From a virus, in IMG/VR virus record IMGVR_UViG_3300008050_000133, positions 1 to 35,822 of that record: 35,822 bases of DNA; one strand, written 5' to 3'. A program made the translations under genes and the position numbers. Below, in pieces: positions 1-35,822 of this stretch. The notes beneath the pieces were generated by a model. That model was not told the origin of the DNA. It saw only the letters and a list, made by a program, of their open reading frames with translations, and did not search any database. Position 1 is the first letter of the stretch. Each line of letters opens with the position of its first letter.

Positions 1-248
1 CCTGAGATAACGTGTTCGGCATACATCCAATCGAACTGTCCACCATAGTGGCCCTTAGCACCTCGTGCTACGTGGGGGGTGTGCTTGAAATTAGCCAAAG
101 ACTCCCCTGAATGTTTTGCTAGTTCCGGGATGGATGCTGCCAAATCCTGTATAAATTTCACACCATCAAAATACTCTAAGACGCCCAAACCCTTGGCCTC
201 GTGAACTGCCTCTATTGCTTCATTCAATTGTCCACATAATGTTTTCAT
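1..248 (-). CDS. Tagged small protein, probable capsid-targeted cargo (partial)
   Basis: The reading frame starts at ATG 248 behind an AGGAG site six bases upstream and runs off the left edge, so only about 82 residues are visible. The first ten residues, MKTLCGQLNE, nearly match those of the next gene upstream (MKTLCEQLNE) and belong to the tag shared with proteins near 14.8 and 22-26 kb. L-N-E at residues 8-10 fits the L-x-E sites of T4-type prohead proteases. The rest (IEAVHEAKG, then KFIQDLAASIPELAK) is helical and not recognised. I infer a head-packaged protein; function unknown. Confidence 0.7.
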   Translation of the reverse strand, partial: MKTLCGQLNEAIEAVHEAKGLGVLEYFDGVKFIQDLAASIPELAKHSGESLANFKHTPHVARGAKGHYGGQFDWMYAEHVIS

Positions 249-266
249 TTTGTACTCCTGTAATAC

Positions 267-650
267 TTAAACCCTATTATCATACAAAATCGAAGCCATT
301 TCTTTGGCTAAATCAAAGGGACGCTTACTCCTTATATCCACACTTTTAGAAGAAGCTATTTCTCGTGTTCCTTTTCTTATACGAGAACGCAATTGACCTT
401 CCCTTACTTCCAGATCAAAATTAACATAACGATTCCTATCGTCATAATGAGTCAATTCAAAATGAATTCCATGCATATCAAGCGCACCCATCTTAAAATG
501 AGTAAAACCTGAATTAGATGTAACCCGTAACTTTAATTCGTAAAAATCCCTTTCAACAAGAACATTTTCTATTTCTTCCAAAATGTCCTCTTCTTCGGGA
601 TTTACCCTAGATCGAGTCAGCTCGTTCAATTGCTCACACAATGTTTTCAT
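267..650 (-). CDS. Tagged 127-residue protein, probable capsid-targeted cargo
   Basis: Starts at ATG 650 with an AGGAG site in the preceding spacer and ends with TAA. The N-terminus MKTLCEQLNE is the recurrent tag, with L-N-E as a possible protease site. Behind it come an acidic helix (EEEDILEEIENVLVE) and a beta-rich stretch around residues 36-95 (KLRVTSNSGF, GIHFELTHYDD, NFDLEVREGQ), then a basic segment. The globular part is not recognised. It sits 17 bases upstream of a second tagged gene and just after the baseplate genes, so it is probably a late gene. Targeting to the capsid is inferred from the tag only. Confidence 0.75.
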   Translation of the reverse strand: MKTLCEQLNELTRSRVNPEEEDILEEIENVLVERDFYELKLRVTSNSGFTHFKMGALDMHGIHFELTHYDDRNRYVNFDLEVREGQLRSRIRKGTREIASSKSVDIRSKRPFDLAKEMASILYDNRV

Positions 651-14418: not shown

Positions 14419-14787
14419 TTACCTTCTCCAGCTCCGAGCACTTTTCTTGTACATAGCAAAATTATTAGAGGATGCTTTCCGAAGAATCCTCTCAATATCA
14501 TCCAAAGATTTCCAAGATCCACTCACAAAATGAGACGTACTCCCACTCCATCCAGATCCCGTAGCATCCGTAGGGGGAGATCCCATATCCCATTCACCTT
14601 CATCGCCATCCATAACATCCTCTAGATCGTAAAAGGTCAGAGTGTATTTATTGTTACCTGGATAAGTAACATATTCAAAATAAGAAAAAGGAGTGTAATG
14701 ATCCCCTAATTCCCATACACCAACTTTTTGAGGAAGGTCTGGTTCCTGTCTTTCCAAAACTTGTTTTAATTTTTCTACTAAATTCAT
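14419..14787 (-). CDS. Tagged 122-residue protein, probable capsid-targeted cargo
   Basis: ATG 14787 is chosen because GGAAG lies five bases upstream and the preceding stop ends at 14790. The N-terminus MNLVEKLKQVLERQE matches the tag seen near 22-26 kb (compare MNLIEQLQTALYE), although L-E-R replaces the clean L-x-E. Behind it are strands and aromatic residues (YTPFSYFEYVTYPGN, YTLTFYDLEDVMDGDEGEWD), a Gly/Ser-rich stretch, and a helix SLDDIERILRKASSN. Function unknown; head packaging is inferred from the tag. Confidence 0.68.
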   Translation of the reverse strand: MNLVEKLKQVLERQEPDLPQKVGVWELGDHYTPFSYFEYVTYPGNNKYTLTFYDLEDVMDGDEGEWDMGSPPTDATGSGWSGSTSHFVSGSWKSLDDIERILRKASSNNFAMYKKSARSWRR

Positions 14788-14789
14788 AG

Positions 14790-16463
14790 TTACTTCCATT
14801 TATCTGGAGAATCGCCTTCCCCGTGAGGTTCTTCCATTATGTCTCGTCCTCCGAGCCACGTTCCATTATACCAATCCCCAGCTTGCCATTCACCATTCTT
14901 CCAGGTTCCCCCGTACCATGTGCCATCTAACCAAATGCCATCAGTCCACACACCACCCCACCAAATTCCTTTTTTCCAAACACCTATTTCCCAAAAACCC
15001 TTTACCCATTGCCCGTCTTTCCAAATACCGTTTTTCCATTCCCCTTTTCCCCACCTTCCATCATTCCATTGACCATTCCACCAAACCCCATCATGCCATT
15101 CCCCATATCTCCAAACCCCATCCAACCATTGTCCCCCATACCAGGAGCCTTTTTCCCAAATCCCCTTTTCCCAGCGTCCTTTTTTCCAAAGTCCATCTTG
15201 CCATTGAGCGCCTTGCCAAACCCCACTTTCCCAAATTCCACCTTCCCAGATATGTCCTTTGAATTCACCTTTTTGCCAAACCCCGCTCTCCCAAGCCAAT
15301 GACAGGGAATCAATCCAGTTTCGAACAACCCTAACCTCAGCAGATCGAACAGAAACAGTTTCATCCAAAATGCCCTGGATAAACCAAGCTATATCGGCCG
15401 ATTCTAGGATGTGATCTTTTGTGATGCCATCTTGCATATCGAAACGAACAGAACGGGTCAATTTTTCCCACATGTCGTCTTTCTGCTTCTGAAGAGAACC
15501 ATCTAATACAGATCGATTTGTGTTAGCTGTGAGGTAAGTCTGCAAGGTTTTCTTATTCTTTATATCCACCCATTCGAATTGTCTGGGATCTGATTTAGAA
15601 AACGAGGTGTCTGGAGCATGTGTGGCCTTGAAGGGAAACAGAACTTGAGGAGTGTAAACAACAGCTACCCTTCCATCAGTTCTCCCTGTAAAAAGAAGGC
15701 CATCATATTTCATGATTGCCTTAATGTAAGAACGATACAAAAATAGAGCCGGATCAGAAGTAAGCTTTCCTTTGTTGTAAAAAAGGGCATTGAAATAAGC
15801 CTGAGCAAATTTTGAATCAAAGGCTCTAGGGTTCATCTTTTTTACATACTCAAAGAAATCATCTAAATGATCCTCATCCACACGAATTCTAGGATGAACT
15901 TTCTTGAACACTTCTATATCCAGGATGATGAACTTATCCAGATTGATCTTGGAAGCTATGATGTAGTCACCATATCGACCAGACATCACATCGTTTTGCT
16001 GAGAAACAAATTCATAGGTAGTGTAAGCTGCCGTTCCATACAGACCTTTGAAAGCTTTGAATCCTGTTCTTTCAATTTTGGGGACTATATCTTCCTTGGT
16101 TCTGTGGTAAACAATTCCAGATTTCCCAGCCACGGCTTCAATCAATTTACTTGTTAGAGTTTCATCCATTTCTAAGAATTCCCAATCGATCAATTTAGCA
16201 GAGCGTAAACTAAGCTCAGGTTCTCGATCTTCTATATTCCCGGAAGTGATATCCTCTTTTTTGAAATGAAAGGTGAGGAGCACTTCCCTGTCAGCCAGCC
16301 CACTGTAATAATCCAAGACATATTGTTTACTTGTCCCAACATAAATACCGTCACCCTTCATTCGGATTTCAGCATTCTTCTTTAGGTTAAAGCTTTGCCT
16401 TGAATCAGCCCCAGATATAACTTTTCTCCCATCGGTGTTCATTATCTTGTACCCGACAAGCAT
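14790..16463 (-). CDS. ADP-ribosyltransferase-like N-terminus with thirty W-x-x-G-x repeats
   Basis: 557 residues from ATG 16463 (AGAAG upstream; a longer frame to 16535 would overlap the previous gene). The N-terminal region reads LVGYKIMNTDGRKVISG, EIRMKGDGIYVGTSKQYVLD, then GIVYHRTKEDIVPKIERTGF, GLYGTAAYTTYEFVSQ and SGRYGDYIIASKI. 'YHRT...GF...GLYGTAAY' resembles the start of ADP-ribosyltransferase-type folds; the catalytic Glu cannot be fixed by eye. The C-terminal ~150 residues are thirty consecutive five-residue units W-x-x-G-x, which should form a regular repeat helix. Possibly a surface or binding module. Function uncertain. Confidence 0.65.
   Translation of the reverse strand: MLVGYKIMNTDGRKVISGADSRQSFNLKKNAEIRMKGDGIYVGTSKQYVLDYYSGLADREVLLTFHFKKEDITSGNIEDREPELSLRSAKLIDWEFLEMDETLTSKLIEAVAGKSGIVYHRTKEDIVPKIERTGFKAFKGLYGTAAYTTYEFVSQQNDVMSGRYGDYIIASKINLDKFIILDIEVFKKVHPRIRVDEDHLDDFFEYVKKMNPRAFDSKFAQAYFNALFYNKGKLTSDPALFLYRSYIKAIMKYDGLLFTGRTDGRVAVVYTPQVLFPFKATHAPDTSFSKSDPRQFEWVDIKNKKTLQTYLTANTNRSVLDGSLQKQKDDMWEKLTRSVRFDMQDGITKDHILESADIAWFIQGILDETVSVRSAEVRVVRNWIDSLSLAWESGVWQKGEFKGHIWEGGIWESGVWQGAQWQDGLWKKGRWEKGIWEKGSWYGGQWLDGVWRYGEWHDGVWWNGQWNDGRWGKGEWKNGIWKDGQWVKGFWEIGVWKKGIWWGGVWTDGIWLDGTWYGGTWKNGEWQAGDWYNGTWLGGRDIMEEPHGEGDSPDKWK
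14848..15294 (-). repeat. 15-base coding repeat, W-x-x-G-x x 30
   Basis: The 3' third of the gene is an array of 15-base units, each starting with TGG (CCA on the plus strand) and carrying a Gly codon in position four. Examples of single units are WEKGI, WLDGV, WHDGV, WKNGE and WYNGT. One unit starts with F instead of W, and one has A in place of G. Variable positions favour K, D, N, E and Q, consistent with a solvent-exposed five-residue beta solenoid with a Trp stack. DNA identity between units is limited to these key codons, so this is a protein repeat rather than a recent DNA amplification. Confidence 0.9.
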
Positions 16464-16492
16464 CTGAGCTTCTTTTAATCGATGAGTTAGAT

Positions 16493-16951
16493 TCACTCTG
16501 GATCTCCCCACTTGTAAGGCTCTAAAACAAACCATTGAATGAGAACTTTCTTGATTCCTTCAATCTTTTCCAGGTCTTTGATCCTGTACCGAAGGGTTCG
16601 ATCTCTTCCAGTTTTCTTGAGAGTAAATACCAGGACCGCATTAGCAGTTAAATTCTCAGGAACAGTCAGGGGATATGCTTTATAGTCTTCCCCTGGATCT
16701 GGGTTCATGGAATAGGATTTGATCCCTCTCACTTGATACAGACTGGTCAAAATAACCTTCATAGTCCCGTCAGCAGCTCCAGTCAAATCATAATAGTTGG
16801 AGGAAGACTCAGATCGATCCATAAAATGATCTGTAGCAGGACGAGCTTTGGGAAGATAATACTTACAATTCAATCCCCAGAATGTAAACAAAGGCTTAAG
16901 CCGATTAGGGTTTGAAAGAATATCTTCTACAACCTCTTGAAGCTTAGACAT
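16493..16951 (-). CDS. Conserved-looking protein of unknown function, head-tail region
   Basis: 152 residues starting at ATG 16951 behind AGGGA. It begins with a helix (KLQEVVEDILSNPNRLKPLF), has an aromatic stretch FTFWGLNCKYYLP, then beta segments (GTMKVILTSLYQVRGIKSY, NAVLVFTLKKTGRDRTLRYR) and ends in LIQWFVLEPYKWGD. The N-terminal helix weakly recalls the tag of other proteins but lacks the L-x-E pattern. I do not recognise it. Confidence 0.65.
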   Translation of the reverse strand: MSKLQEVVEDILSNPNRLKPLFTFWGLNCKYYLPKARPATDHFMDRSESSSNYYDLTGAADGTMKVILTSLYQVRGIKSYSMNPDPGEDYKAYPLTVPENLTANAVLVFTLKKTGRDRTLRYRIKDLEKIEGIKKVLIQWFVLEPYKWGDPE

Positions 16952-18249: not shown

Positions 18250-19719
18250 TTAAGTTAAAGAAACTTTATGGGTGTATCGTGGTACGAGTGTCTCGTAAGC
18301 AGACCACTCCGCTACAGCCCTCTGGCTAACCAGTGGGTTCTTAGCGTGAGGACGCATTTCCGTCATGAACATAGGCATGTAAGTTGCCTTCACAACAGCA
18401 CTCTTGAAAGGACTGTTGGGAGAGTTGTACAGACAGATAGCATCGTCATCACCGATCTGATCAGGTGAGTACACAACCGTAATGGTTCCGAAAGTTCCAA
18501 GAAGTTTTGGTCCCAGTGTCTCGTCAAAAGCCACTTTTACAAAACTGTCCTGATCCAGGAGAAAAGAAGCCATGTTCTTTCCAACGACCATTCGATTGAT
18601 AGACCCGTTACCAGAACGATAATTCAGATCCAGGTTAGCTTCCTCAATTGCAATGGAAAGCCCTTGCCTGTAACGCTTCTCTTCGATACTCCCTACAGCA
18701 GGGTTTATCTTAGTGAAGGTCTTAGCTGTGGCTCCTCCAGCAGTGAAGGCCGACTTGATCGTCTCAATAACACGAGTGGAACTAGCAGCAGCCATAGCCT
18801 CAGACAGATCTTGAACGATCTCGTCTTCCAGAACCTTTCCAAAACGCTTCTGCATGGAATATGCTTTCAGAGTTTGGTGAAGTCCTTTGAAGGCTGCAAC
18901 ATGAGCATTCACGCTCTTGCTGGTGTACTGTGTTCCAATCGTTGGAAGATCATCAGCCAATTCCAGGTCAATCTCATAAGTCAATAGAATGTCGTTTCCG
19001 TCATTGGTATCGTCAGTGAGATTGATAACTACTTGACCGTTGGTGTAATTAACCGTTCCACCACCAGCAGAACCGATCATGTTTCCAGATCCGTCATCAA
19101 CGAAAGAGAGGGTATCTATAATACAAGTTACCTTGCTCTTGCGAAGTGGGAGATTGGAAGCAGTCACAGTGTACTGTGCGGTTCCGGTAGCAGTGTTTGT
19201 CCCGGTATCCTCATTCTCAATGAGGGTAGCGCCGAAATCCATCATCTTCTTGTATGAGCCAGAAGCCATTCCCTGATCAGATTTCAGGTAGTTGTCTCCC
19301 TTGGTCACACTGGCAGAAGCTTTGGTGGTTTCGAAAAGGAGTTCCTTGAAATAAACATTTCCGGTTTCTTCGTCAATGGGCTGGTGAGAAGCCAGAAGAC
19401 TTGCAACACCAAGACCGTACTGAGAAGAAATTACGTCAAATGCCAGATTAGGAAGAACTCCGAGATCACTGGCTGATCCAGTTTCATGGATCATGGCCTC
19501 GTACATAAGCTGGAAGTTCTCCAGCATTGATCCGACATAGAAAGCATCGTGTTCATTGAACTGCTTTCCTGAGATTACGAAGATGTCGGCACTTCGTAGG
19601 GGGTCTAACCATTTGCCGTACTGCTCGTCGTAGCGATTTGCTTCTCGCTCAACGATAGCGCCGTAACGGTCTTCGTTCAAGCCTCCCCCGAATTTTGGTC
19701 TTTGTTTCATGATATGCAT
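18250..19719 (-). CDS. Major capsid protein, T4 gp23-like
   Basis: About 489 residues. The strong GAGGAG site favours the second of three close ATGs (19719). Family-typical segments: FYVGSMLENFQLMYEAMIHE, LPNLAFDVISSQYGLGVASL, TGNVYFKELLFETTKASASV, then an inserted beta domain with GTVNYTNGQVVINLTDD and LLTYEIDLELADDLP, and the helix LHQTLKAYSMQKRFGKVLED. Further on, RMVVGKNMASFLLDQDSFV, PDQIGDDDAICLYNS and VKATYMPMFMTEMRPHAKNP match the gp23 C-terminal half. It follows the protease/scaffold gene, as in T4. The N-terminal region has I-V-E and L-N-E as possible maturation sites, not decidable here. Confidence 0.88.
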   Translation of the reverse strand: MHIMKQRPKFGGGLNEDRYGAIVEREANRYDEQYGKWLDPLRSADIFVISGKQFNEHDAFYVGSMLENFQLMYEAMIHETGSASDLGVLPNLAFDVISSQYGLGVASLLASHQPIDEETGNVYFKELLFETTKASASVTKGDNYLKSDQGMASGSYKKMMDFGATLIENEDTGTNTATGTAQYTVTASNLPLRKSKVTCIIDTLSFVDDGSGNMIGSAGGGTVNYTNGQVVINLTDDTNDGNDILLTYEIDLELADDLPTIGTQYTSKSVNAHVAAFKGLHQTLKAYSMQKRFGKVLEDEIVQDLSEAMAAASSTRVIETIKSAFTAGGATAKTFTKINPAVGSIEEKRYRQGLSIAIEEANLDLNYRSGNGSINRMVVGKNMASFLLDQDSFVKVAFDETLGPKLLGTFGTITVVYSPDQIGDDDAICLYNSPNSPFKSAVVKATYMPMFMTEMRPHAKNPLVSQRAVAEWSAYETLVPRYTHKVSLT

Positions 19720-19837: not shown

Positions 19838-20653
19838 TTACTTATCATCCTTCTGAACCGAACCTGTGAGTCGGCCTTTGCCTTCGACAAAAGCACGACC
19901 GGAAACAACCGATCTCACAGAACTCCCGCTTCCTCCATACAATCTCTCGGAAAGGAATTCAGCTTTCTCTCCGTCGTTTGTATAAGGGGCTTTAGGGGTC
20001 CCGTTTTCCTGCATTCGGGACATAAGATCCCCGTTTGCACTCGGCCTCTTTCCGTGAACAGCTTCGATGGTTTCCCGCAGCTTTCCAAAAGGAACTCCAT
20101 TTTCCTGGATACTTTTGATGGTATCCTCTTCCATTCCGAATTCCTCAGACAGTTCTTTCAATTGAACTGCTTGAGTATCTTCCTGGACTTTCTGGAGTTT
20201 CCCCATAGCTTCCTTGATAGAGGTAGCACAAGCTTCGGGAGTTTCAGCAATCTCTCGCCACTCTTTGAGTTCTTTATCCTGCTCCTCAAGAGCTTCCTCG
20301 ATTTCCTTCATGGAACCAAGTTTCTCGAAGAATCGGTTATTGCACTCAATTTTCTCCAGGGCTTCCGTAAGAGCTATCGTAGCCTCCGAAGGGGAAGGGC
20401 CAATGTCTTCTTTGAAAGACTTGAACTCTTCTACCGTTCCGATGGTTTCAAACTCTTGGAGTTTTTCCTGGATATTGGATGCTCTGTCTTTCTCCTCCTG
20501 CAAAGCAGAAGCAGACTCAGACAAATCATCTTGTTTTGATTGGTTGAGAGTCTTTAAACTCTCATTGGTTTTTTCCAGCTCGACGATTTTTTTGCTTTGA
20601 AGCTTAGATTCGTCACGAGCCTCATTGAAAAGATTTTTGTACTCTTCGCTCAT
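19838..20653 (-). other. Possible internal start giving free scaffold protein
   Basis: Within the fused gene an in-frame ATG at 20653 (residue 276, MSEEYKNLFNEARDE) is preceded by AAAGGAAGAGAAA, a credible ribosome binding site eight bases away, exactly where the coiled-coil scaffold part begins. Lambda-type phages make scaffold from such an internal start inside the protease gene. Here it is inference; the purine-rich codons AAG GAA GAG could mimic a site by chance. Confidence 0.45.
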
Positions 20654-21478
20654 TTTCTCTTCCTTTACATCAGGCAAAGCTACCGTAGCCTTGCTGTTTT
20701 GATCAAGGTCGAGCGAGTCATCATACCTCGAAGGGATCGTGGGTGTATCCTCGCCTCGTTTCTTAGGTTTTTTCTGTTCGAACAAATATGCTTGCTGTTC
20801 GGCAAGCTCAAAATCATTGTTCGCTAACCCTTCATTTTCTGATTGTGCCACAAGAGACTCGAACAATGCAACATCTTCGCTGTTTAAGTTCTCACGAACA
20901 TTCTGAAATTCGGGCTGTGCTTTGAGAAATCCAGGTTGTGGTACAACATCGAATCTCTCTAATTTATACTTTTTAGGATCAACAACCGGGATATGTTTAC
21001 CGAGCTTCTCACTATAATGTTTGGCTCCTGGTTTAAAAGAACCATCAGCTCTAGAGGATACGAACATCTTCGAACCCCCGGAGAGATATGCATGGAGAAC
21101 CCGTCCAACAGGAGTATCCAGAACATACGACTCAGCGTATCCTTGGATTTCTCCACCCCTGCGAACTAGCTGCATATTCTTGGTATAGTGGGAAACCTTG
21201 CCCTCTCTGAGAGCTTCTTCGGTTATTTCCAGATCATGTCCTATTGTTCCAAACATCTGTCCATTGCCCATTCGCTCTTGTATGCGAACATTACCCTGAA
21301 CAGTTTCCCAAAGATCAGCTCCGTAGAACCGCTCATTTCGGCTTTCACCATTTGGAACAAAATGATCCCCTTTGAGAACTCCCAAAACATTTGGGAGATT
21401 TTCTTCTATTTGTTTAGACTCATCAAAAGGGAGATAAGAATAGTTGATGGGAGAAATTGTACCAACTATGCGACTCAT
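19838..21478 (-). CDS. Prohead protease fused to scaffold-like domain
   Basis: 546 residues. Residues ~70-185 match T4 gp21-type (S80) prohead proteases: QMFGTIGHD with His81, EIQGYAESYVLDTPVGRVLH, KMFVSSRADG with Ser141/142, and KLERFDVVPQPGFL. After a Glu/Pro-rich linker the C-terminal ~270 residues are acidic coiled coil (KLQSKKIVELEKTNESLKTL, EALEKIECNNRFFEKLGSMK, EEALEEQDKELKEWREIAET), typical of a scaffold core protein, ending in a Gly/Ser/Arg segment. T4 keeps protease (gp21) and scaffold (gp22) separate; here they are one frame. The protease should cleave scaffold, capsid and tagged internal proteins. ATG 21478 has AGGAG six bases upstream. Confidence 0.85.
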   Translation of the reverse strand: MSRIVGTISPINYSYLPFDESKQIEENLPNVLGVLKGDHFVPNGESRNERFYGADLWETVQGNVRIQERMGNGQMFGTIGHDLEITEEALREGKVSHYTKNMQLVRRGGEIQGYAESYVLDTPVGRVLHAYLSGGSKMFVSSRADGSFKPGAKHYSEKLGKHIPVVDPKKYKLERFDVVPQPGFLKAQPEFQNVRENLNSEDVALFESLVAQSENEGLANNDFELAEQQAYLFEQKKPKKRGEDTPTIPSRYDDSLDLDQNSKATVALPDVKEEKMSEEYKNLFNEARDESKLQSKKIVELEKTNESLKTLNQSKQDDLSESASALQEEKDRASNIQEKLQEFETIGTVEEFKSFKEDIGPSPSEATIALTEALEKIECNNRFFEKLGSMKEIEEALEEQDKELKEWREIAETPEACATSIKEAMGKLQKVQEDTQAVQLKELSEEFGMEEDTIKSIQENGVPFGKLRETIEAVHGKRPSANGDLMSRMQENGTPKAPYTNDGEKAEFLSERLYGGSGSSVRSVVSGRAFVEGKGRLTGSVQKDDK

Positions 21479-21510: not shown

Positions 21511-22194
21511 TTAACTTAAGCTGCCCGTGTCTTCAAACATTTCGTGGAATTTAGGAAAGTCCTTTTTAGGCTTTTCCTTCGCCACTTCTTCAAGTGTTTT
21601 CGGATTAAGAAGAGACATTATAAGATAGAGATCGTCTTCTTCTATAATCCTGAACTCTTCTAAACATTGTACCACACAAGTTAGGCGTTTGTTCGCATAT
21701 TCAAACAGTATGTCCCACTCAGCCTGTTCAAGAACAGTAGGGACTACATAGCGATTACAAATGTTCAGATGAGATTTGAGGGAGTATATATCGGTCAAGA
21801 TATCCCCGAAAGACTCTTCTACTGTTTTCTTGCGTCCGGTCTTTGGGGCTCTGTCATCTGTCTGGGAACGGGTAGCTACGAAATTACCGAGAGCCCTGTG
21901 GAATCTTTTCCCTTTGGCTGATCGGTGGAATCTGCGAATACCTCTTTTGTATTTGGCTTTGTTCCTACGATAATTGTGTTTTTGGTTTTGGGATTTCTTC
22001 CTGTCTTTGACCTGATCTACATCCCGGTCCCTGTGTATAACAAATTCGTGTACGTGGGATTCTTGAGTGAGATCTAAAGCAGGGTCGTATGTAGAAGCCT
22101 CTGTTTGGAGAATCTCTAAATCGTATTCTTGTATTTTATACGGACGAAACATAGTGGACAAACAGAAAACTCTGTTCTCTTTAAGTTTAACCAA
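21511..22194 (-). CDS. Basic protein of unknown function next to the protease
   Basis: Up to 227 residues. The start is uncertain: TTG 22194 overlaps the previous stop by eight bases, ATG 22152 lacks a clear ribosome binding site. The middle is strikingly basic (KKSQNQKHNYRRNKAKYKRG, IRRFHRSAKGKRFHRALGNF), while the C-terminal half is acidic and helical (EQAEWDILFEYANKRLTCVV, EEFRIIEEDDLYLIMSLLNP). It lies immediately upstream of the prohead protease. A head-associated DNA-binding role is possible, inferred from charge and place. Confidence 0.6.
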   Translation of the reverse strand: MVKLKENRVFCLSTMFRPYKIQEYDLEILQTEASTYDPALDLTQESHVHEFVIHRDRDVDQVKDRKKSQNQKHNYRRNKAKYKRGIRRFHRSAKGKRFHRALGNFVATRSQTDDRAPKTGRKKTVEESFGDILTDIYSLKSHLNICNRYVVPTVLEQAEWDILFEYANKRLTCVVQCLEEFRIIEEDDLYLIMSLLNPKTLEEVAKEKPKKDFPKFHEMFEDTGSLS

Positions 22195-22780
22195 TCCCTA
22201 TAGCGGATTCAATCTTTTTTACACTTGATTGAATTCGTCTCAATTCACTGATCACAAGACTGGCCTTATCTTCTGGGAAAGCTTGACCAAAAGAAGAGGG
22301 AGAAATTTTCCATCGATTAGAAAGACTGAAACTCAATCGGAAGTATTTCATCCAAGTAGGAGATTTGGAAAAGGCTATGGATGTTTTGTCCTTTAGGCGG
22401 AAGCCTTCCTTGGTTAGTGCTTTGCGAAACAACCCCCTCCAATTGTCCGGGAGCTTAGAAATGTCCACAGGTTTGATTTTGTACCTTTGATTAAATCCAG
22501 GGGAAGGAACATCTTGAATAGTGGTACGACTGGGTTTGATTTTACGTGGTCGATAAATTCCTTTGAAATCCGGCTGTCTTAAATCAGGCTCTTTTATCTC
22601 TGTATCGGATTGAGATGTGAAACTTTGCTTAACATTCTTTACAAAATTCTTGAAGAAATTCACATCCCGTTCATCTAGTTCTGTTTGTTCTCCAAACACT
22701 TCGAACAAAATAAGATCTTGAACAGTCAATTCCTGAACCGTTTGTTCTTTGAGAACATTGTTTAATTGTTCGATCAACAT
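22187..22780 (-). CDS. Tagged 197-residue protein, probable capsid-targeted cargo
   Basis: Starts at ATG 22780 behind GGAG. The N-terminus MLIEQLNNVLKEQTVQE is the clearest form of the tag; the same VLxxQTVQE extension recurs inside the 854-residue protein (residues 730-738), which shows true relatedness. L-K-E at residues 10-12 is a fitting prohead-protease site. The body contains DERDVNFFKNFVKNVKQSF, a Pro/Lys-rich linker (FKGIYRPRKIKPSRTT) and a C-terminal domain (LPDNWRGLFRKALTKEGFRL, MKYFRLSFSLSNRWKISPSS). Domain function unknown. Confidence 0.78.
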   Translation of the reverse strand: MLIEQLNNVLKEQTVQELTVQDLILFEVFGEQTELDERDVNFFKNFVKNVKQSFTSQSDTEIKEPDLRQPDFKGIYRPRKIKPSRTTIQDVPSPGFNQRYKIKPVDISKLPDNWRGLFRKALTKEGFRLKDKTSIAFSKSPTWMKYFRLSFSLSNRWKISPSSFGQAFPEDKASLVISELRRIQSSVKKIESAIGIG

Positions 22781-22789
22781 TGTTCGCTC

Positions 22790-23083
22790 CTAATGCCTGT
22801 ATGAAAAAGATCCGTAGTTTGAAGGGACGAACAAACCGTAGCCTTCCATTTTTTTAAGGATCTCAAATGTGAGTCCGGGGAAATAGGACAGGAACATGAC
22901 CCGAACGGAATCTTCCATTCTCCGGGCAGTATCGTCCGAATCCACATATCCCCCAAGACTTGTAACAATTCTTTCAAATTCATTAAATTGAATTTCCCTA
23001 CTGCTCATGACTGCCCAAGGCACAAGCTCTAAATCACTTGCTTTCACTGCCCCCCTATCTATTTCAGTAGAGGAAAAAGTCAT
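22790..23083 (-). CDS. Small protein of unknown function
   Basis: 97 residues: TEIDRGAVKASDLELVPWAV, IQFNEFERIVTSLGGYVDSD, TARRMEDSVRVMFLSYFPGL, and a short end LFVPSNYGSFSYRH. It lies inside the tagged cluster but lacks the tag at its own N-terminus. The ribosome binding site before ATG 23083 is weak. No family recognised. Confidence 0.6.
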   Translation of the reverse strand: MTFSSTEIDRGAVKASDLELVPWAVMSSREIQFNEFERIVTSLGGYVDSDDTARRMEDSVRVMFLSYFPGLTFEILKKMEGYGLFVPSNYGSFSYRH

Positions 23084-23098
23084 TCCTACTTTCGTAGA

Positions 23099-23368
23099 TC
23101 AATAAAACTGCCTAAGTGCTTTAAAATACTTGTTGATGTTCTTAAACATCCAGGAATTGTCTTCTGTAGAAGTATAGCCTCTCTTCTCATTACGAGCTAG
23201 AATAGCTTTAACCTCTTTGACATCCTCTTTAGATCCAAAGTGAGTAGCCAAGAGAAGGTAATTTTCTGTGTGATGATTACGCTCTTCATTTTCCTTATAT
23301 TCCTTGGCAATAGCCTGGAGATCCTTAGCTTCGTATAGTGCGGTTTGAAGTTGTTCAATTAAGTTCAT
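23099..23368 (-). CDS. Tagged 89-residue protein, probable capsid-targeted cargo
   Basis: ATG 23368 with AGAGG five bases upstream. The N-terminus MNLIEQLQTALYEAKDL carries the tag with L-Y-E at residues 10-12; 'EAKD' also follows an internal tag copy of the 854-residue protein (LVSEAKDVPE). The remaining ~75 residues are helical and charged (IAKEYKENEERNHHTENYLL, GSKEDVKEVKAILARNEKRG, MFKNINKYFKALRQFY), suggesting a small helical bundle. Function unknown. Confidence 0.75.
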   Translation of the reverse strand: MNLIEQLQTALYEAKDLQAIAKEYKENEERNHHTENYLLLATHFGSKEDVKEVKAILARNEKRGYTSTEDNSWMFKNINKYFKALRQFY

Positions 23369-23378
23369 AATGTCCTCT

Positions 23379-23684
23379 CTATTTACTTCCTATTATTTTC
23401 CTAAGCCGACCTAAAAGCTCCCCAACAGTATCCCCAGAAATTGTAGAAGATCCAGTTCCCCAGTTTTTATAAGGGGCCTTCAGCTTAGCTATATGCTGAG
23501 TATCTTTTACATAATAATCAGCTATGTACTTGTTTAAGGGAGCCTGTTTCACAACAAATGAAAAAGGCTTGTCTAACTTCACCTTGGGATTCATCAAGGC
23601 GGATATAAGCGCCAAGAATTCATGAACTTCCAGATCCTCCAGAAGAGTGTTCAATTGATTACACAAAGTTGGTTTCATATCCAT
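23379..23684 (-). CDS. Tagged ~100-residue protein, probable capsid-targeted cargo
   Basis: Two near starts, ATG 23684 and 23678, give MDMKPTLCNQLNTLLEDLE; no strong ribosome binding site, and a longer frame to 23723 would begin inside the previous gene. The TLCNQLNTLLE core matches the tag of the two leftmost genes (TLCEQLNE) and has L-L-E as a possible cut site. The rest: VHEFLALISALMNPKVKLDK, FSFVVKQAPLNKYIADYYVK, then DTVGELLGRLRKIIGSK. Unknown domain. It is translationally close to the upstream polyprotein gene. Confidence 0.72.
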   Translation of the reverse strand: MDMKPTLCNQLNTLLEDLEVHEFLALISALMNPKVKLDKPFSFVVKQAPLNKYIADYYVKDTQHIAKLKAPYKNWGTGSSTISGDTVGELLGRLRKIIGSK

Positions 23685-23701
23685 CACGTATGCTGCTCTT
23701 T

Positions 23702-26266
23702 TTAGGCGTTGGCATCTTTCCAAGCTTGTAGCGCATCATCATGGCCCATGTCCAAGTTTAAAGAGTTCGAGATTCGATACGTTTTCATCAAATACGTATA
23801 GGTCCTACCTAAAGAACGGAAAACCTCAGTGTCCCCTTTTAAATTTGTAAAAGCATACCCGATTGATCCCAAGTCCTCTAACTCTCCTATCTGCTTATTC
23901 CGGACATACACAGGAGTAGAGACAACCAAATCATCCAAATCTAACTCTACTAACTTATTAAGCCCTTCGATCAAAGTCTCTTTCTTTTTCTCGTCAGGGA
24001 TATTTCCATCATTCTTAAACTGAGCTTTCATGGAGTCTACCTGAGAGGTTTCTTCCTGAACTGTTTGTTTGTTCAAGACACTGTTCAGGCCCTCGATTAT
24101 CTTGGGCTTGTGTTCGTTCGTTTCTCCTTCTGGGGCTTCGTTCGATTCCTCTTCTTTTTCTTCGGGAACATCCTTGGCCTCAGAAACCAGAGCTGACAGA
24201 CCCTCAATTAAAAGACCTTCAGATTTCTTTTTGCGTGTGGTGAATTCTCTGTCAGAAGATTCAGCTAATTCAATGTTATGAGGAGCCACTCTTTCCGAAC
24301 GAGAAACTCCAGGAACGGCAACAACATAACCAGCTCCTCTGGAGCTATCCCCCTTGTCAAATCGGACTATTTCCCCCTTTACCATTTTCCCATTAAGGGG
24401 GATTTTTACAGCAGTCCCATCAGAATATATTTTTTCATCCATAGCATTCTCCAGTAAATCCAAGAGGTAATTCTCTTTTAATTTCTTCTTGATGACCCCT
24501 AAAATATTAGGGTCCGCCACATGACCATGAACTGTAAATTGATCGTCTTTCAATAAAGTCTTCCCAAGAGTCTTGGTCTTTTGGAATATCTTTTTCATTT
24601 TCTTGCTCAAATCCGAAAGATCTTTGGCTTTAGTTTTTCTCAAACCAATTTTAGCTCGTCCATAAGCCATCCTTCGATTCTCTGGATTTATGGTGTAGCT
24701 TTGCTGGGAAAATTCGACCTCTATCTTCTTCCCTAGATCAATGTGGAATTCAAGAGACAAAGGATCATTTCGTCTTATTCCATGAGAGAATTCCGTGTTA
24801 TTTGATCCAAGGGTAGCTGTGAAATATAGAGTCCCTTCTCCTCCTAAAGACATGTGAGCAGTAGTCAACAAAGCATTAGGAAAAACATCATCCCAAACAG
24901 ATTTGACCGCCTTGGTTATGTCTTCTTTACTAAATTTTCCCTCTATAGCATTCTCCAGTACGGCTGTTGAATAGTCCTGGGTCTTTGCCATCCCCAGATA
25001 CATATTCAGTTCATAGGTTCCTGTGTCAGTCCCCCGGTTATAGATTTGAAAGTGAACAGATTTTTTTGCGGGCTTCTTATCCTTGAACAAAAGAAGACGA
25101 AGTCGGTTAGTATTTCCTTCAGATGGTTTTCTTGGTCCGGCTCCAATTGTGTTGGCTGCTTCCTCGGGGTCAATCTCAAATCCCTGACGCTTGACCCAGC
25201 GTTTCATTTCCTGGATTGCTACTGTGTAGGAATCATGATATAGCGTGTATTCATCCTTGGGAGATTTTTCACTTAACAGCCCGTCGAATTGACCACAAAG
25301 GGATTCAGATTTACCTTCGCCTTCTGGTTGATTTCCAAATGATCCAAAATCAATATCACCCAAAGGCGTTTTATATTTTTTGGATATCTTAGTCTGGATG
25401 TCCTTTAGATTAGATCCCTTTATACTAGATCCTTTTCTACCAAAAACAAATACATAATTTCCATCACCTAGAGATCTCAATTCCCCTAAAGGAGCCCCAT
25501 TTATAAAAACAACATCTCTAGCTTTACCTTTTCCTGCTTCTTTTATTTCCAATCCTTCCTTTTGTTGATTACCAATCGCATTTCCGTAGCTTCGTCCTAT
25601 CTTCAAAAGAAGATCAATTTTGAGAGGGACGACCAGAGCATCAAACTTCAAATCAGGATCTGACAACATCACTTGAGCATATCTGTGATGCCCATCCAAT
25701 ATAAACCCTTCCTGGGAAACTATGATGGTTGTCTTGAGTAAGGGAGATCCTTTCTTAGCTGGTCCAAACTTAGCTAACAAAGGAGCTATCTTGTCCAACC
25801 AAATTTGATTCTGAGTGGGGAATAACTGTCTTCCTGATATCTTCTTTCGCTTAGCTTTGATTCTCTCGTCATTTTCCTTTCCGTCCTGGTGTCCTAAAAA
25901 GACAAATTCAGCCCGATCCTGGGAAGGTTGGGTCAGAAGATCTTTGGGAAAATAGGGAGAATTGAATGCGTAAGGTTTAAAGATGTCCAGATCTCCGTTA
26001 TTCAGAGCTATTTGAAAAGCCTTGATATCAGAAGGTTCAATAACGGGCATGTCTTTTCTGGGATAGTGAGGAGTGCTGTGAAGGCGTTTCTGCAAATCGA
26101 CATAGTCCTTGTCAAAGTCAGGGAAGTCTGCCTCAAAACTCTTCCCAGAGGCTTCAAACACACCTGAAAGTAGGTCTTTCGCCTTCTCTAAAGAGGTTGT
26201 GGCTATATTTGTGGTAAAACCGCCCTCAGAAGATTCCAAAATTTTATTCAAAGAGTCAATGAGCAT
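23702..26266 (-). CDS. 854-residue modular protein with ParB-like domain and repeated tags
   Basis: Begins MLIDSLNKILESSEG, the tag, at ATG 26266 (GGAG eight bases upstream, TAATG overlap with a small membrane gene). Residues ~140-235 form a ParB/Srx-like domain (LFPTQNQIWLDKIAPLL, IIVSQEGFILDGHHRYAQVM with DGHHR at 191-195, LLKIGRSYGNAIGN). The tag recurs at about 321-332 (ESLCGQFDGLLSE), 684-696 (GLLIEGLSALVSE), 721-733 (PKIIEGLNSVLNK) and 764-774 (TLIEGLNKLVE), with a weaker copy near 600 (LLDLLENAMDE). Between them lie a domain with HFQIYNRGT...YELNMYLG (404-425), a small beta domain (616-667) and a twice-used module VFINGAPLGELRSLG / VYVRNKQIGELEDLG. I infer a packaged polyprotein cut by the prohead protease. 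Confidence 0.75.
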   Translation of the reverse strand: MLIDSLNKILESSEGGFTTNIATTSLEKAKDLLSGVFEASGKSFEADFPDFDKDYVDLQKRLHSTPHYPRKDMPVIEPSDIKAFQIALNNGDLDIFKPYAFNSPYFPKDLLTQPSQDRAEFVFLGHQDGKENDERIKAKRKKISGRQLFPTQNQIWLDKIAPLLAKFGPAKKGSPLLKTTIIVSQEGFILDGHHRYAQVMLSDPDLKFDALVVPLKIDLLLKIGRSYGNAIGNQQKEGLEIKEAGKGKARDVVFINGAPLGELRSLGDGNYVFVFGRKGSSIKGSNLKDIQTKISKKYKTPLGDIDFGSFGNQPEGEGKSESLCGQFDGLLSEKSPKDEYTLYHDSYTVAIQEMKRWVKRQGFEIDPEEAANTIGAGPRKPSEGNTNRLRLLLFKDKKPAKKSVHFQIYNRGTDTGTYELNMYLGMAKTQDYSTAVLENAIEGKFSKEDITKAVKSVWDDVFPNALLTTAHMSLGGEGTLYFTATLGSNNTEFSHGIRRNDPLSLEFHIDLGKKIEVEFSQQSYTINPENRRMAYGRAKIGLRKTKAKDLSDLSKKMKKIFQKTKTLGKTLLKDDQFTVHGHVADPNILGVIKKKLKENYLLDLLENAMDEKIYSDGTAVKIPLNGKMVKGEIVRFDKGDSSRGAGYVVAVPGVSRSERVAPHNIELAESSDREFTTRKKKSEGLLIEGLSALVSEAKDVPEEKEEESNEAPEGETNEHKPKIIEGLNSVLNKQTVQEETSQVDSMKAQFKNDGNIPDEKKKETLIEGLNKLVELDLDDLVVSTPVYVRNKQIGELEDLGSIGYAFTNLKGDTEVFRSLGRTYTYLMKTYRISNSLNLDMGHDDALQAWKDANA

Positions 26267-33283: not shown

Positions 33284-33567
33284 TAGAATCCCATCCAACG
33301 AAAGAACCTATTAAAGAGTCCCCGGTTATATCTGCGATATCGATCTGAAAGGAGAAACCACACTCTCCGGAATCTCTCCTCATCCATTCCCCGAAGCTCT
33401 ATAAGATTGTTCTCTACTTCCCGTGAGAGCTTCAAAACTCGTTCTGATCTTTCTCACTTCTGCTTCTCTTTTGCATCCTCATACATCCGTTGGAATTTCC
33501 CTGTTTTACATAGCTCCAAAAGATGCTCATCGTATTCCACAAAGACCGTTTTGTTTTCATCACTCAT
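33283..33567 (-). pseudogene. 94-codon gene interrupted by an in-frame TGA
   Basis: From ATG 33567 (GGAG seven bases upstream, overlapping the methyltransferase stop) the frame stops at TGA 33456-33454 after 37 codons, then stays open with convincing coding sequence to TAA 33283, which overlaps the next start. The halves read VFVEYDEHLLELCKTGKFQR and MYEDAKEKQK, then after the TGA ERSERVLKLSREVENNLIEL, RGMDEERFRRVWFLLSDRYR. A single TGG to TGA change would explain it. The second half has no clear start of its own. Unknown function. Confidence 0.55.
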
Positions 33568-34480
33568 CCAAACTCTCCATTATCCGAATACGAGCCAATC
33601 TAAAATATTCTTCTTCCTTTTCTATTCCTATAAACCTTTTCTCATTATTTCCACAAGCAATCCCAGTCGTTCCAGATCCCATAAACGGATCAAGCACTGT
33701 TCCACCTTCAGGACAGCCAGCCAACACACAGGGTTCAATCAGGGCCTCTGGGAACGTCGCAAAGTGTGCACCACGATATGGTTTGGTATTTACACTCCAC
33801 ACACTCCGCTTGTTGCGTCCCTTGCTAGGATCACCCAACATATTATGTCCACCTTTCATATTTTTGGTGGATTTCTCAGAGTCCCCATGAGAAGACACTA
33901 TCCGTTTTCTCTTCTCGTGTTCTGCTTGGGAAGTAAATGGCTCTCGAATAGCATCCACATCAAAATAATACTTCTGTGATTTTGTGAATAAAAAAATATA
34001 TTCGTGTGCCCGTGTGCATCGATCCCGCACACTCTCTGGCATGGGATTATTCTTTGCCCAAATAATATCATTTCGTAGGTACCACCCATCCTCCTGTAAA
34101 GCAAAAGCAACACGCCAAGGAACCCCTATCAAATCTTTGATCTTTATCCCACTTGGCATCTTGGGAAGCTCTTGTGATTTTTGTATTCCGTTGGATTTGG
34201 TATCGCTGTCATACGATTTACGATTCCCACTTGAATAACTATCCCCCATGTTAAGCCAAACCGTCCCGTCCTCTCGCAAAACACGACGCACTCGACGAAA
34301 GACAAAAACAAGCGCTTGTATATACGATTCAAGTGTTTCTCCAAATCCAAGTTGACCAGGAACACCATAATCCCGCAACCCAAAATAAGGAGGACTGGTT
34401 ACACAAGTATGTACTTGAATCCCGTCACACGCCCACTTTCCTAATATCTGTCCACAATCCCCCACTTCTATCCGATCCAT
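33560..34480 (-). CDS. Beta-class DNA methyltransferase (N6-adenine or N4-cytosine)
   Basis: 306 residues from ATG 34480 (AGAGG upstream). The catalytic motif TSPPY lies at 28-32, and the AdoMet-binding motif DPFMGSGTT at 264-272, followed by FIGIEKEEEYFRLARIRI. Catalytic motif before the AdoMet motif defines the beta class. VWLNMGDSYSSG and IIWAKNNPMPESVRDR between them are also typical. SPPY occurs in both N4-cytosine and N6-adenine enzymes, so the modified base is open. No restriction partner is adjacent, so it may protect phage DNA or tune packaging or host defence escape. Confidence 0.88.
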   Translation of the reverse strand: MDRIEVGDCGQILGKWACDGIQVHTCVTSPPYFGLRDYGVPGQLGFGETLESYIQALVFVFRRVRRVLREDGTVWLNMGDSYSSGNRKSYDSDTKSNGIQKSQELPKMPSGIKIKDLIGVPWRVAFALQEDGWYLRNDIIWAKNNPMPESVRDRCTRAHEYIFLFTKSQKYYFDVDAIREPFTSQAEHEKRKRIVSSHGDSEKSTKNMKGGHNMLGDPSKGRNKRSVWSVNTKPYRGAHFATFPEALIEPCVLAGCPEGGTVLDPFMGSGTTGIACGNNEKRFIGIEKEEEYFRLARIRIMESLDE

Positions 34481-34522: not shown

Positions 34523-35680
34523 TCATTCCCGCAACAATAATTCCTCCAACATGCCCGGGAGATCACCCCCATCTTCCAAATGGGCTTCCATTTCAGCGAT
34601 CAAATTGCCTGTGTCCCCGTGTGGCATGAATTCACTTGTAGCTGCTGAAGAGACGGATCCTACAATGCCGTCCGCCCCGTCCTTACTCCCGGGTTCCCCG
34701 TCACCATACTTGTCCGGGTGATCAAACTTCTTGCCTGTGTCGCGGAGTTCGATCAACTCCTTAAAGAGTCTAGGATGGGCTGGTCCTACCCAGCGCCCTT
34801 CGTTCACTGCGGTTCGAAATCTCTGGTGATGTTCCTTGGTCTTATCCAGGGAAAGCTTATCGGTTTCAAATCCCTGGAGCTGTGCACGCTGTCTGAAATC
34901 GACGGACTGGAATCCGTCGGTCGTGATCTTAGCGATGTACAAACCATAGACATCCCTGAGCTCCACAAAGAAGTTGAGGATCTTATACAGGGGGATCTCT
35001 TCGCCGGGACGTGCTTTGATAAACAGCACAAAGTCTGACTGTATGACGGGCTCTGTGAACGTCCGACGCTCCCCGAGATTAGCATCGAAGCGTTCCAGGG
35101 ATTTAGATCCTTGGGGATAGGAGCAGCCGATACCTGTGAGATCCCCGGATTCTGAAAAGTCACAATGGATGAATCGAGGAGCTTCTTTGTCCGCGAGATT
35201 ATACAGCACAGCATCATTGATATAAGCCGAGATCTGATCATCCCCAAACAAGGAGGGAGAAATCACCTGTTGTGTGGTAACGAGTGGGAGAGAACACGCC
35301 TCGTTGAGTTTAGCCGGTTTAATTATGAGTTTCCTGGTCGCATTGGTTGAACGTCCAGCCAAGTCTTTCAACGATCCAAAAATGTCATCGTCAAATTCCT
35401 GCCTGTGCTCCACTGGCACGTCAAGTACCAGAGTCTCATCCAACATCGCGTTGAGTTCGGTATCCTTCTCATCCATAACGAATGGATCCGTTGTGATGTC
35501 CCCTGCGTACACCTTAAACGTCCCACCTGTATATACATGGGGCTTGGCTTCCCAGAATGGAAACTCAACCACATACACGTACGGGAGATCCTTGCAGCGC
35601 TCGATATGAACAGAAACAAGCAGACAGGAAAAAGTTGAAGTACGTAAGGCACAGCTGTTTTTGACAGAGCTTATAAAGCT
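34523..35680 (-). CDS. Large terminase, C-terminal nuclease half (incomplete)
   Basis: From GTG 35578 the product is 351 residues. PRFIHCDFSESGDLTGIGCS (Asp140), IAKITTDGFQSVDFRQRAQL (Asp221) and PGSKDGADGIVGSVSS (Asp300/303) are the acidic motifs of the RNase H-like nuclease of TerL, and FDHPDKYGDGEPGSKD is its typical closing segment. VYVVEFPFWEAKPHVYTGG then TFKVYAGD matches the end of the ATPase half. The ATPase P-loop and DE box are missing: the frame stays open beyond GTG 35578 but meets a stop at 35683-35681. GTG 35578 has only a distant AAGGA, so I doubt it is a real start. Split gene, intron, frameshift or truncation are possible. Confidence 0.75.
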   Translation of the reverse strand, partial: SFISSVKNSCALRTSTFSCLLVSVHIERCKDLPYVYVVEFPFWEAKPHVYTGGTFKVYAGDITTDPFVMDEKDTELNAMLDETLVLDVPVEHRQEFDDDIFGSLKDLAGRSTNATRKLIIKPAKLNEACSLPLVTTQQVISPSLFGDDQISAYINDAVLYNLADKEAPRFIHCDFSESGDLTGIGCSYPQGSKSLERFDANLGERRTFTEPVIQSDFVLFIKARPGEEIPLYKILNFFVELRDVYGLYIAKITTDGFQSVDFRQRAQLQGFETDKLSLDKTKEHHQRFRTAVNEGRWVGPAHPRLFKELIELRDTGKKFDHPDKYGDGEPGSKDGADGIVGSVSSAATSEFMPHGDTGNLIAEMEAHLEDGGDLPGMLEELLLRE

Positions 35681-35822
35681 TTAACTAACCAGATTATGAT
35701 ATTCGCCTGCTCAATAATCCAGGTTGTTGGTTCTTTGTCGTAGATCGCCCCCTTTTTGTCTGGATTGACAAGGTGTTACGTTCCCAAAAAACGCCATCAT
35801 CGTAACCTTGAATACTTGGCTC
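35681..35822 (-). other. Unresolved end region upstream of the terminase frame
   Basis: Three minus-strand frames are each open for 28-42 codons here, none starting clearly; one reads VNPDKKGAIYDKEPTTWIIE. None joins the terminase frame without a shift. Two small hairpins are possible near 35660-35685. I cannot assign it; it may hold the rest of the terminase gene in another frame or intron sequence. Confidence 0.3.

Follow-up and report, generated by a model that had tools for sequence, protein, structure and literature searches.

In the window, the 35,822-nucleotide stretch of DNA from a large uncultured phage (IMG/VR record IMGVR_UViG_3300008050_000133) that was analysed, seven non-homologous proteins begin with a common amphipathic N-terminal tag of 11-14 residues. 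The tag is probably a capsid-targeting sequence like those of the T4 internal proteins, serving for docking, protease cutting and delivery, with one gene, for an 854-aa protein, stringing tagged cargo modules together. Since seven unrelated proteins are tagged, and since related phages place tags on enzymes, some of them labelled as virion proteins, its most likely role is to load effectors into the head for delivery to the host. The seven tagged genes and a possible eighth member are:

1..248, minus strand: tagged protein, incomplete at the contig end; tag MKTLCGQLNE at 219-248
267..650, minus strand: tagged protein, 127 aa; tag MKTLCEQLNE at 621-650
14419..14787, minus strand: tagged protein, 122 aa; start MNLVEKLKQVLERQE at 14787, tag MNLVEKLKQVLE at 14752-14787
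14790..16496, minus strand: possible eighth member, outside the seven; MNLTHRLKEAQ, GTG start, C-terminal WxxGxW repeats
22187..22780, minus strand: tagged protein, 197 aa; tag MLIEQLNNVLKE at 22745-22780
23099..23368, minus strand: tagged protein, 89 aa; tag MNLIEQLQTALYE at 23330-23368
23379..23678, minus strand: tagged protein; tag MKPTLCNQLNTLLE at 23637-23678, start possibly two codons further upstream
23702..26266, minus strand: tagged multi-module protein, 854 aa; N-terminal tag MLIDSLNKILE at 26234-26266

The tag follows approximately the pattern L-[IVC]-x-x-L, then hydrophobic-x-E. The initial annotation had proposed seven such starts on otherwise unrelated proteins; all seven were present where it had placed them, and the parts following the tag have no mutual BLAST similarity at E 0.05. 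When the first 18 residues of the 46 minus-strand proteins were compared, 17 pairs scored at least 25, far more than among shuffled N-termini (mean 2.1 pairs, maximum 9 in 300) or random internal 18-mers (mean 2.3, maximum 8), and these controls disfavour a chance origin of the shared starts. The gene at 22790-23083, within the cluster, is untagged. The protein at 1..248 resembles L085:269-550 of a related contig (E 1e-4). The N-terminus of 14790..16496 scores 23 against the tag of 14419-14787; this protein was suspected by eye to be an ADP-ribosyltransferase, which no family match supports. Family searches gave no confident family for the protein at 22187..22780, an NCBIfam search returned no significant names, and solved-structure searches with two window proteins gave nothing useful. 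AlphaFold models for which no alignment was used reached only pLDDT 40 and 32 and were set aside.

The likeness of the tags is not a matter of copied DNA, because the post-tag parts are unrelated and, where tags have a residue in common, the codon also agrees in 41% of cases, versus 33% expected. Codons at the tag thus vary at the background rate, so selection acts on the peptide. It is therefore very improbable that the common starts are functionless relics of a gene duplication or of a DNA element at the translation start that these genes share. The adjoining genes at 1-248 and 267-650, whose starts are nearly identical, would fit such an origin, but the peptide pattern is also seen within a reading frame and on a second virus contig.

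The tags end in a candidate cleavage site. A hydrophobic-x-Glu motif lies within residues 7-17 in all seven tagged proteins versus 15 of 44 others (p 0.0015). The initial annotation had noted L-x-E or I-x-E in most tags, and the strict form [LI]-x-E is indeed present in six of the seven, the protein at 14419-14787 having V-L-E. It had also reported a gp21-like protease near the cluster, and the enzyme was confirmed one gene away; it is listed here together with the major capsid protein (MCP):

18250..19719, minus strand: major capsid protein, 34% identity to the MCP of Rhizobium phage RHph_TM39
19838..21478, minus strand: prohead protease, extended at its C-terminus by a long segment that is probably the scaffold; phrog_207, E 8e-12

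His81 and Ser141 of the protease are invariant in a nine-protein alignment, and the homologue in TM39 is annotated as 'prohead core scaffolding and protease'. The product of 19838..21478 is likely both the enzyme that cuts the tags and the core that binds them. The MCP N-terminus contains LNE, a candidate cut site shaped like those of the tags, and a similar x-Glu site near the N-terminus is found in all nine aligned MCPs except that of YerA41. No relatives emerged when viral contigs were searched with the protease, capsid or 854-aa protein singly, and the nine-row capsid alignment proved too diverse for use as a query.

Three features of T4-type targeting are found together in the window: a short N-terminal peptide common to unrelated proteins, a candidate cut site at the end of that peptide in all seven, and a gp21-family prohead protease encoded in the same genome. 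The T4 proteins IPI-III and Alt likewise carry, on differing mature parts, a capsid-targeting sequence (CTS), a short N-terminal peptide (10-20 residues) that ends in Glu and is cut by gp21. T4 cargo is delivered with the DNA (PMC9026906, PMC12373910), and the tag of IPIII alone suffices for packaging a foreign protein (PMC9026906). The two systems differ in several respects. The window tag, compared by eye, is unlike the T4 sequence MKTYQEFIAE, the capsid protein belongs to a different clade (phrog_1014), and tags also lie inside one long protein. Seven genes are tagged within the 36 kb of the window, whereas in T4, used as a control, a strict CTS pattern recovered only IPII, IPIII and one unrelated match. 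In the giant phages SPN3US and phiKZ, too, several inner-head proteins are cut after x-x-Glu by a gp21-related protease, and gp53 and gp54 have an identical start; their propeptides, however, mostly exceed 100 residues, compared with about 9-14 in the window, and no internal repeat of a short tag is mentioned in the portion of the source used here (PMC5694885).

Tags were also found in related phages. A profile trained on the window gave four N-terminal matches of at least 10 bits among the 115 proteins of contig G001 (0.07 expected); without the match by which this contig was found, three further tagged proteins remain (p about 5e-5). Tags in G001 precede S-AdoMet lyase-like and HTH/DnaD-like domains, and those in L020 precede NUDIX, ART-PolyVal, AAA and PolyA_pol domains. 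Other phages with the same capsid-protein family place tags of a form particular to them on NUDIX, ADP-ribosyltransferase, CCA-adding, AAA and pyrophosphatase proteins. The NUDIX relative in phage GAP32 starts at the domain, without a tag; the comparison rests on GAP32, the stretch from PA5oct being an in-frame translation from a chosen position. The NUDIX relative in BcepSauron has an N-terminal extension. By pair counts the N-terminal excess in TM39 is marginal, and no excess of tags was seen in the examined DNA of relatives L014, L016, L018 and L019.

Evidence from virions comes from Yersinia phage YerA41, which has a capsid protein of the same family. Six of its seven tagged proteins are labelled 'structural protein', a label counted for 42 of 207 proteins (p 0.0003); if all 63 virion-associated proteins are taken as background (PMC7354516), the enrichment is p 0.0035. 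We take these labels to rest on published LC-MS/MS. The YerA41 tag, SRISxLNxKFEA, is unlike the window tag in sequence, so the link between the two is one of architecture and shared capsid family. Because the particle preparation also held polymerases and other enzymes, detection in it is not proof of location in the head.

Amphipathic helices are common docking motifs, and the tag might instead dock these proteins to another phage machine, for example in replication, transcription or tail assembly, by binding a partner common to them in the infected cell, so that they stay outside the head and need no cutting. The scatter of tagged genes across the TM39 genome, beyond its head cluster, and the presence of some tags without a clean cut site would suit this explanation. 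We nevertheless consider it unlikely, given the virion labels in YerA41, the enrichment of hydrophobic-x-Glu at the tag end and the prohead protease near the cluster. The T4-like targeting of head cargo put forward in the initial annotation is supported, in that the module is defined at the peptide level, enzyme domains follow the tag in relatives, the tag recurs in a related contig and most tagged YerA41 proteins are labelled as structural.

The 854-aa protein has further tag-like segments, overlooked in the initial annotation, which were scored with a tag profile trained without this protein and are listed here after a domain of the same chain:

25577..25870, minus strand: ParB/sulfiredoxin-like domain, residues 133-230, motif DGHHR; phrog_2859, E 1.4e-8
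25268..25300, minus strand: internal tag 1, LCGQFDGLLSE, residues 323-333; 10.8 bits, within the Melnitz-homologous stretch
24434..24466, minus strand: internal tag-like segment 2, LLDLLENAMDE, residues 601-611; weak, 3.4 bits, spacing and final Glu fitting by eye
24179..24211, minus strand: internal tag-like segment 3, LIEGLSALVSE, residues 686-696; moderate, 5.6 bits
24068..24100, minus strand: internal tag 4, IIEGLNSVLNK, residues 723-733; 10.8 bits, nearest Glu site downstream at VQE
23945..23974, minus strand: internal tag 5, LIEGLNKLVE, residues 765-774; 14.2 bits

The ParB/sulfiredoxin-like domain has relatives in Microcystis phage Mel-JY01 and Aeromonas phage 65; it had no Pfam match, and the ParB name is taken from the motif. 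Residues 268-423 match part of a protein of phage Melnitz; the chain has both a ParB-like match and this Melnitz-homologous domain. Three internal tags reach at least 10 bits, versus 0.13 expected; two of the five segments are weak. Eight contigs fitted a DNA pattern built for the internal tag LIEGLNxVLN, but each carried the same RecA-like protein, and the matches were judged to be due to chance.

Because of its internal tags, the 854-aa protein looks like several cargoes in one chain. The same alternation of tag and domain is seen in a pyrophosphatase of two related Vibrio phages, and in one of these phages the next gene starts with a sequence like the internal tag. Tentatively, one gene may encode a tandem chain of cargoes, each with its own tag; the prohead protease would cut this chain apart within the capsid, and several injected effectors would thus arise in fixed proportion from one translation product. 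Somewhat doubtful, if still credible, is the explanation that the internal segments are spacer helices only and that the protein goes into the head in one piece, in the manner of a polyvalent effector, with the N-terminal tags still targeting the capsid. The weak pair of segments, and a strong one lacking Glu at the usual place, would be expected of spacers. Polyvalent proteins of phages and plasmids are described, in the part of the source drawn upon, as multidomain chains that include ParB-like, ART and pyrophosphatase domains and are predicted to be injected; their processing is ascribed there to built-in metallopeptidase domains, whereas in the window a tag with a candidate prohead-protease site stands before the modules (PMC5512222). 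The fit of three segments to the N-terminal profile and the near identity of the Vibrio internal tag to a neighbouring gene's start argue against mere spacers. Entry as a whole chain would bear on the splitting step alone and does not conflict with capsid targeting by the tag.

Under capsid targeting, the amphipathic helix would dock cargo on the prohead core, probably at the long extension that the protease protein carries at its C-terminus. During head maturation the protease would cut after the Glu of hydrophobic-x-Glu and the tag would be lost, and the freed cargo would stay beside the DNA in the head and pass into the next host. Modules of the 854-aa chain, each behind its own tag, could be split inside the prohead into separate products. 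Comparison supports the targeting role of the tag well; we infer docking on the scaffold, cleavage after L-x-E, splitting of the chain and injection, as well as the presence of the tagged proteins in the virion of their own phage.

These results suggest that capsid-targeting tags are used well beyond the T4 group and can sit inside a chain. The ip genes of T-even phages were found by their signal sequence, and a recognizable lineage-specific tag would similarly make it possible to list, from sequence alone, the effectors that large uncultured phages probably inject. The tag points at likely actors in early infection, including, in relatives, a SAM-lyase-like protein and an ADP-ribosyltransferase.

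Seven proteins encoded in the window begin with a common segment of up to 14 residues, approximately L-[IVC]-x-x-L and then hydrophobic-x-Glu. Among their N-terminal 18-mers, 17 pairs scored at least 25; none of 300 shuffles gave more than 9 such pairs, and none of 300 samples of internal peptides gave more than 8. After removal of the first twenty residues, the seven showed no mutual similarity at E 0.05, and the common start on otherwise unrelated proteins that the initial annotation had described is thus borne out. The hydrophobic-x-Glu site is found in all seven tags versus 15 of 44 other N-termini; gene calls came from a simple script that scored ribosome sites, and some protein starts may therefore be wrong. 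Where two tags share a residue, the same codon was used in 41% of cases versus 33% expected from codon usage, and five further phage sets behaved alike, each with a fraction (0.29 to 0.57) close to the value expected for that set. Because codon agreement is near expectation and the remainders are dissimilar, the likeness is, as judged from the sequences, maintained as a peptide.

The minus-strand structural genes of this 35.8 kb virus record are ordered as terminase part, tagged-gene cluster, protease, major capsid protein and tail genes. Features of the window are:

35579-35822: 244 bases upstream of the terminase frame, up to the contig end, without continuation of that frame
34523-35578: terminase frame, starting at about residue 295 of the terminase of a related virus contig, G001
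33560-34480: probable DNA methyltransferase, judged by eye from its motifs; several Microcystis phage Mel-JY01 proteins resemble it
23702..26266, minus strand: tagged protein of 854 residues
19838-21478, minus strand: prohead protease
18250..19719, minus strand: major capsid protein
14790-16496: protein with many WxxGxW repeats forming its C-terminal part

The capsid protein shares 34% identity with its counterpart in Rhizobium phage RHph_TM39 (TM39), with remoter kinship to those of Vibrio, Yersinia, Cobetia, Thermus and other phages. A gp21-like protease had been proposed, and its match to phrog_207 confirms this; it has a long C-terminal extension, and the homologue in TM39 carries the annotation of a core scaffolding and protease protein. 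Near the capsid-protein N-terminus, an x-Glu site occurs in the clade, as LNE in the window and INE, IAE, IQE, VDE or PLE in relatives; none is visible at the start of the YerA41 capsid protein. These sites agree with a single protease that would cut both capsid protein and tags.

The 854-residue protein carries further tags inside. A profile trained without it gave 14.2 bits at residue 765 and 10.8 bits at residues 723 and 323, three matches versus 0.13 expected in a chain that long (p 0.0003); two weak segments, at residues 686 (5.6 bits) and 601 (3.4 bits), agree with the tag on visual inspection. Separate homologues cover two regions of the chain: for residues 133-230 these are phrog_2859 and shorter proteins from Mel-JY01 and Aeromonas phage 65, and for residues 268-423 a portion of a protein of phage Melnitz. 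The latter match spans the tag at 323, which is therefore no simple marker of where that region starts. The inorganic pyrophosphatase of two related Vibrio phages opens with a tag-like segment and holds a tag internally, MKSAKDILTICESL in one phage and MRSAHNILSICESL in the second; in one of them the following gene begins MKTAQDILTICESL. We take this enzyme, from its sequence, as a probable second case of fused cargo.

The 75.7 kb contig G001 was found through one exact match to the pattern MKTLCxQLN, and is a relative of the window phage because the terminases are 55% identical. Among its 115 proteins the window-trained profile picked out four with N-terminal tags scoring 10 bits or more, versus 0.07 expected, an excess that holds when the protein behind the contig's discovery is left out (p about 5e-5). 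Two tagged proteins have recognizable domains: one matches the S-AdoMet lyases (E 3.6e-6, narrowly missing the Pfam cut-off), and the other is a helix-turn-helix protein resembling replication initiators and DnaD-type loaders. The G001 terminase is itself broken by a segment with intein-like ends (L088:3000-5693; start CFSKLNRCW, and VYDLETEEFHNFALGCGVI in a later piece).

Phages of the same capsid-protein family carry tag versions of their own.

Tag versions in relatives of the window phage
L020: MSKAxDLIxxMNE; twelve matches among 33 genes, about 0.6 expected
L017: MNKAQKLINLIEE
TM39: MSKAxxLLxxLNE
Vibrio phage 150E35-1: LLEICES
YerA41: SRISxLNxKFEA

Profile seeds were our choice from N-terminal similarity clusters, so the counts in relatives are descriptive, with leave-one-out scores and shuffles as controls; one of the twelve L020 matches (11096-11659) is no cargo but a fragment of the capsid gene. 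The L020 tag precedes NUDIX, ADP-ribosyltransferase (ART-PolyVal), AAA ATPase and CCA-adding/poly(A) polymerase domains. In Cronobacter phage GAP32, a related NUDIX protein lacks the tag and begins directly with the domain; the tag thus behaves like a module that has been added. On the DNA compared, similar N-termini were not in excess in several relatives. In Tunturiibacter phage Tunturi_5 (L113:2611-6423) the NUDIX domain is embedded in a very long chain that resembles a polyvalent protein. The L020 major capsid gene is in three pieces split by two insertions (G002:8908-11872; L020/L089), one with an ORF of GIY-YIG-like look (L020:9296-9994), which suggests introns. Structure prediction gave no usable model. 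The portion of the open literature consulted held no account of such tags in this capsid-protein clade, and one may exist elsewhere.

A link to virions comes from YerA41, for which LC-MS/MS of purified particles gave 63 particle-associated proteins (PMC7354516). Six of the seven KFE-tagged proteins are named 'structural protein' in its record versus 42 of 207 tabulated (p 0.0003), two of the 42 being named otherwise but noted as associated with particles; p was 0.0035 when all 63 formed the background. The annotated start of one of these six tagged proteins (23860-24207) may be wrong, since its tag begins 16 residues further in. Reading paper and record together, we take the label to derive from mass spectrometry. 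These labels are the strongest evidence for such tagged proteins in particles, for a different tag sequence and with the place within the particle not given.

In T4, ten residues of IPIII are enough for packaging; residues 4 and 7 are important for targeting and residues 8 and 10 for gp21 processing, and the packaged cargo enters the host by injection (PMC9026906). Each of IP1, IP2 and IP3 inhibits one GmrSD nuclease type (PMC12373910). Proteins of Melnitz (L009 4606-6947) and Aeromonas phage 65 (L011 4156-5004) start MKKFSEL, MKKFSEI or MKKFSEF, resembling the T4 capsid-targeting sequences. By analogy, the tag system of the window most likely works as T4 capsid targeting does: tagged cargo would contact the scaffold, the protease would cut the tag, and the cargo would be injected into the host.
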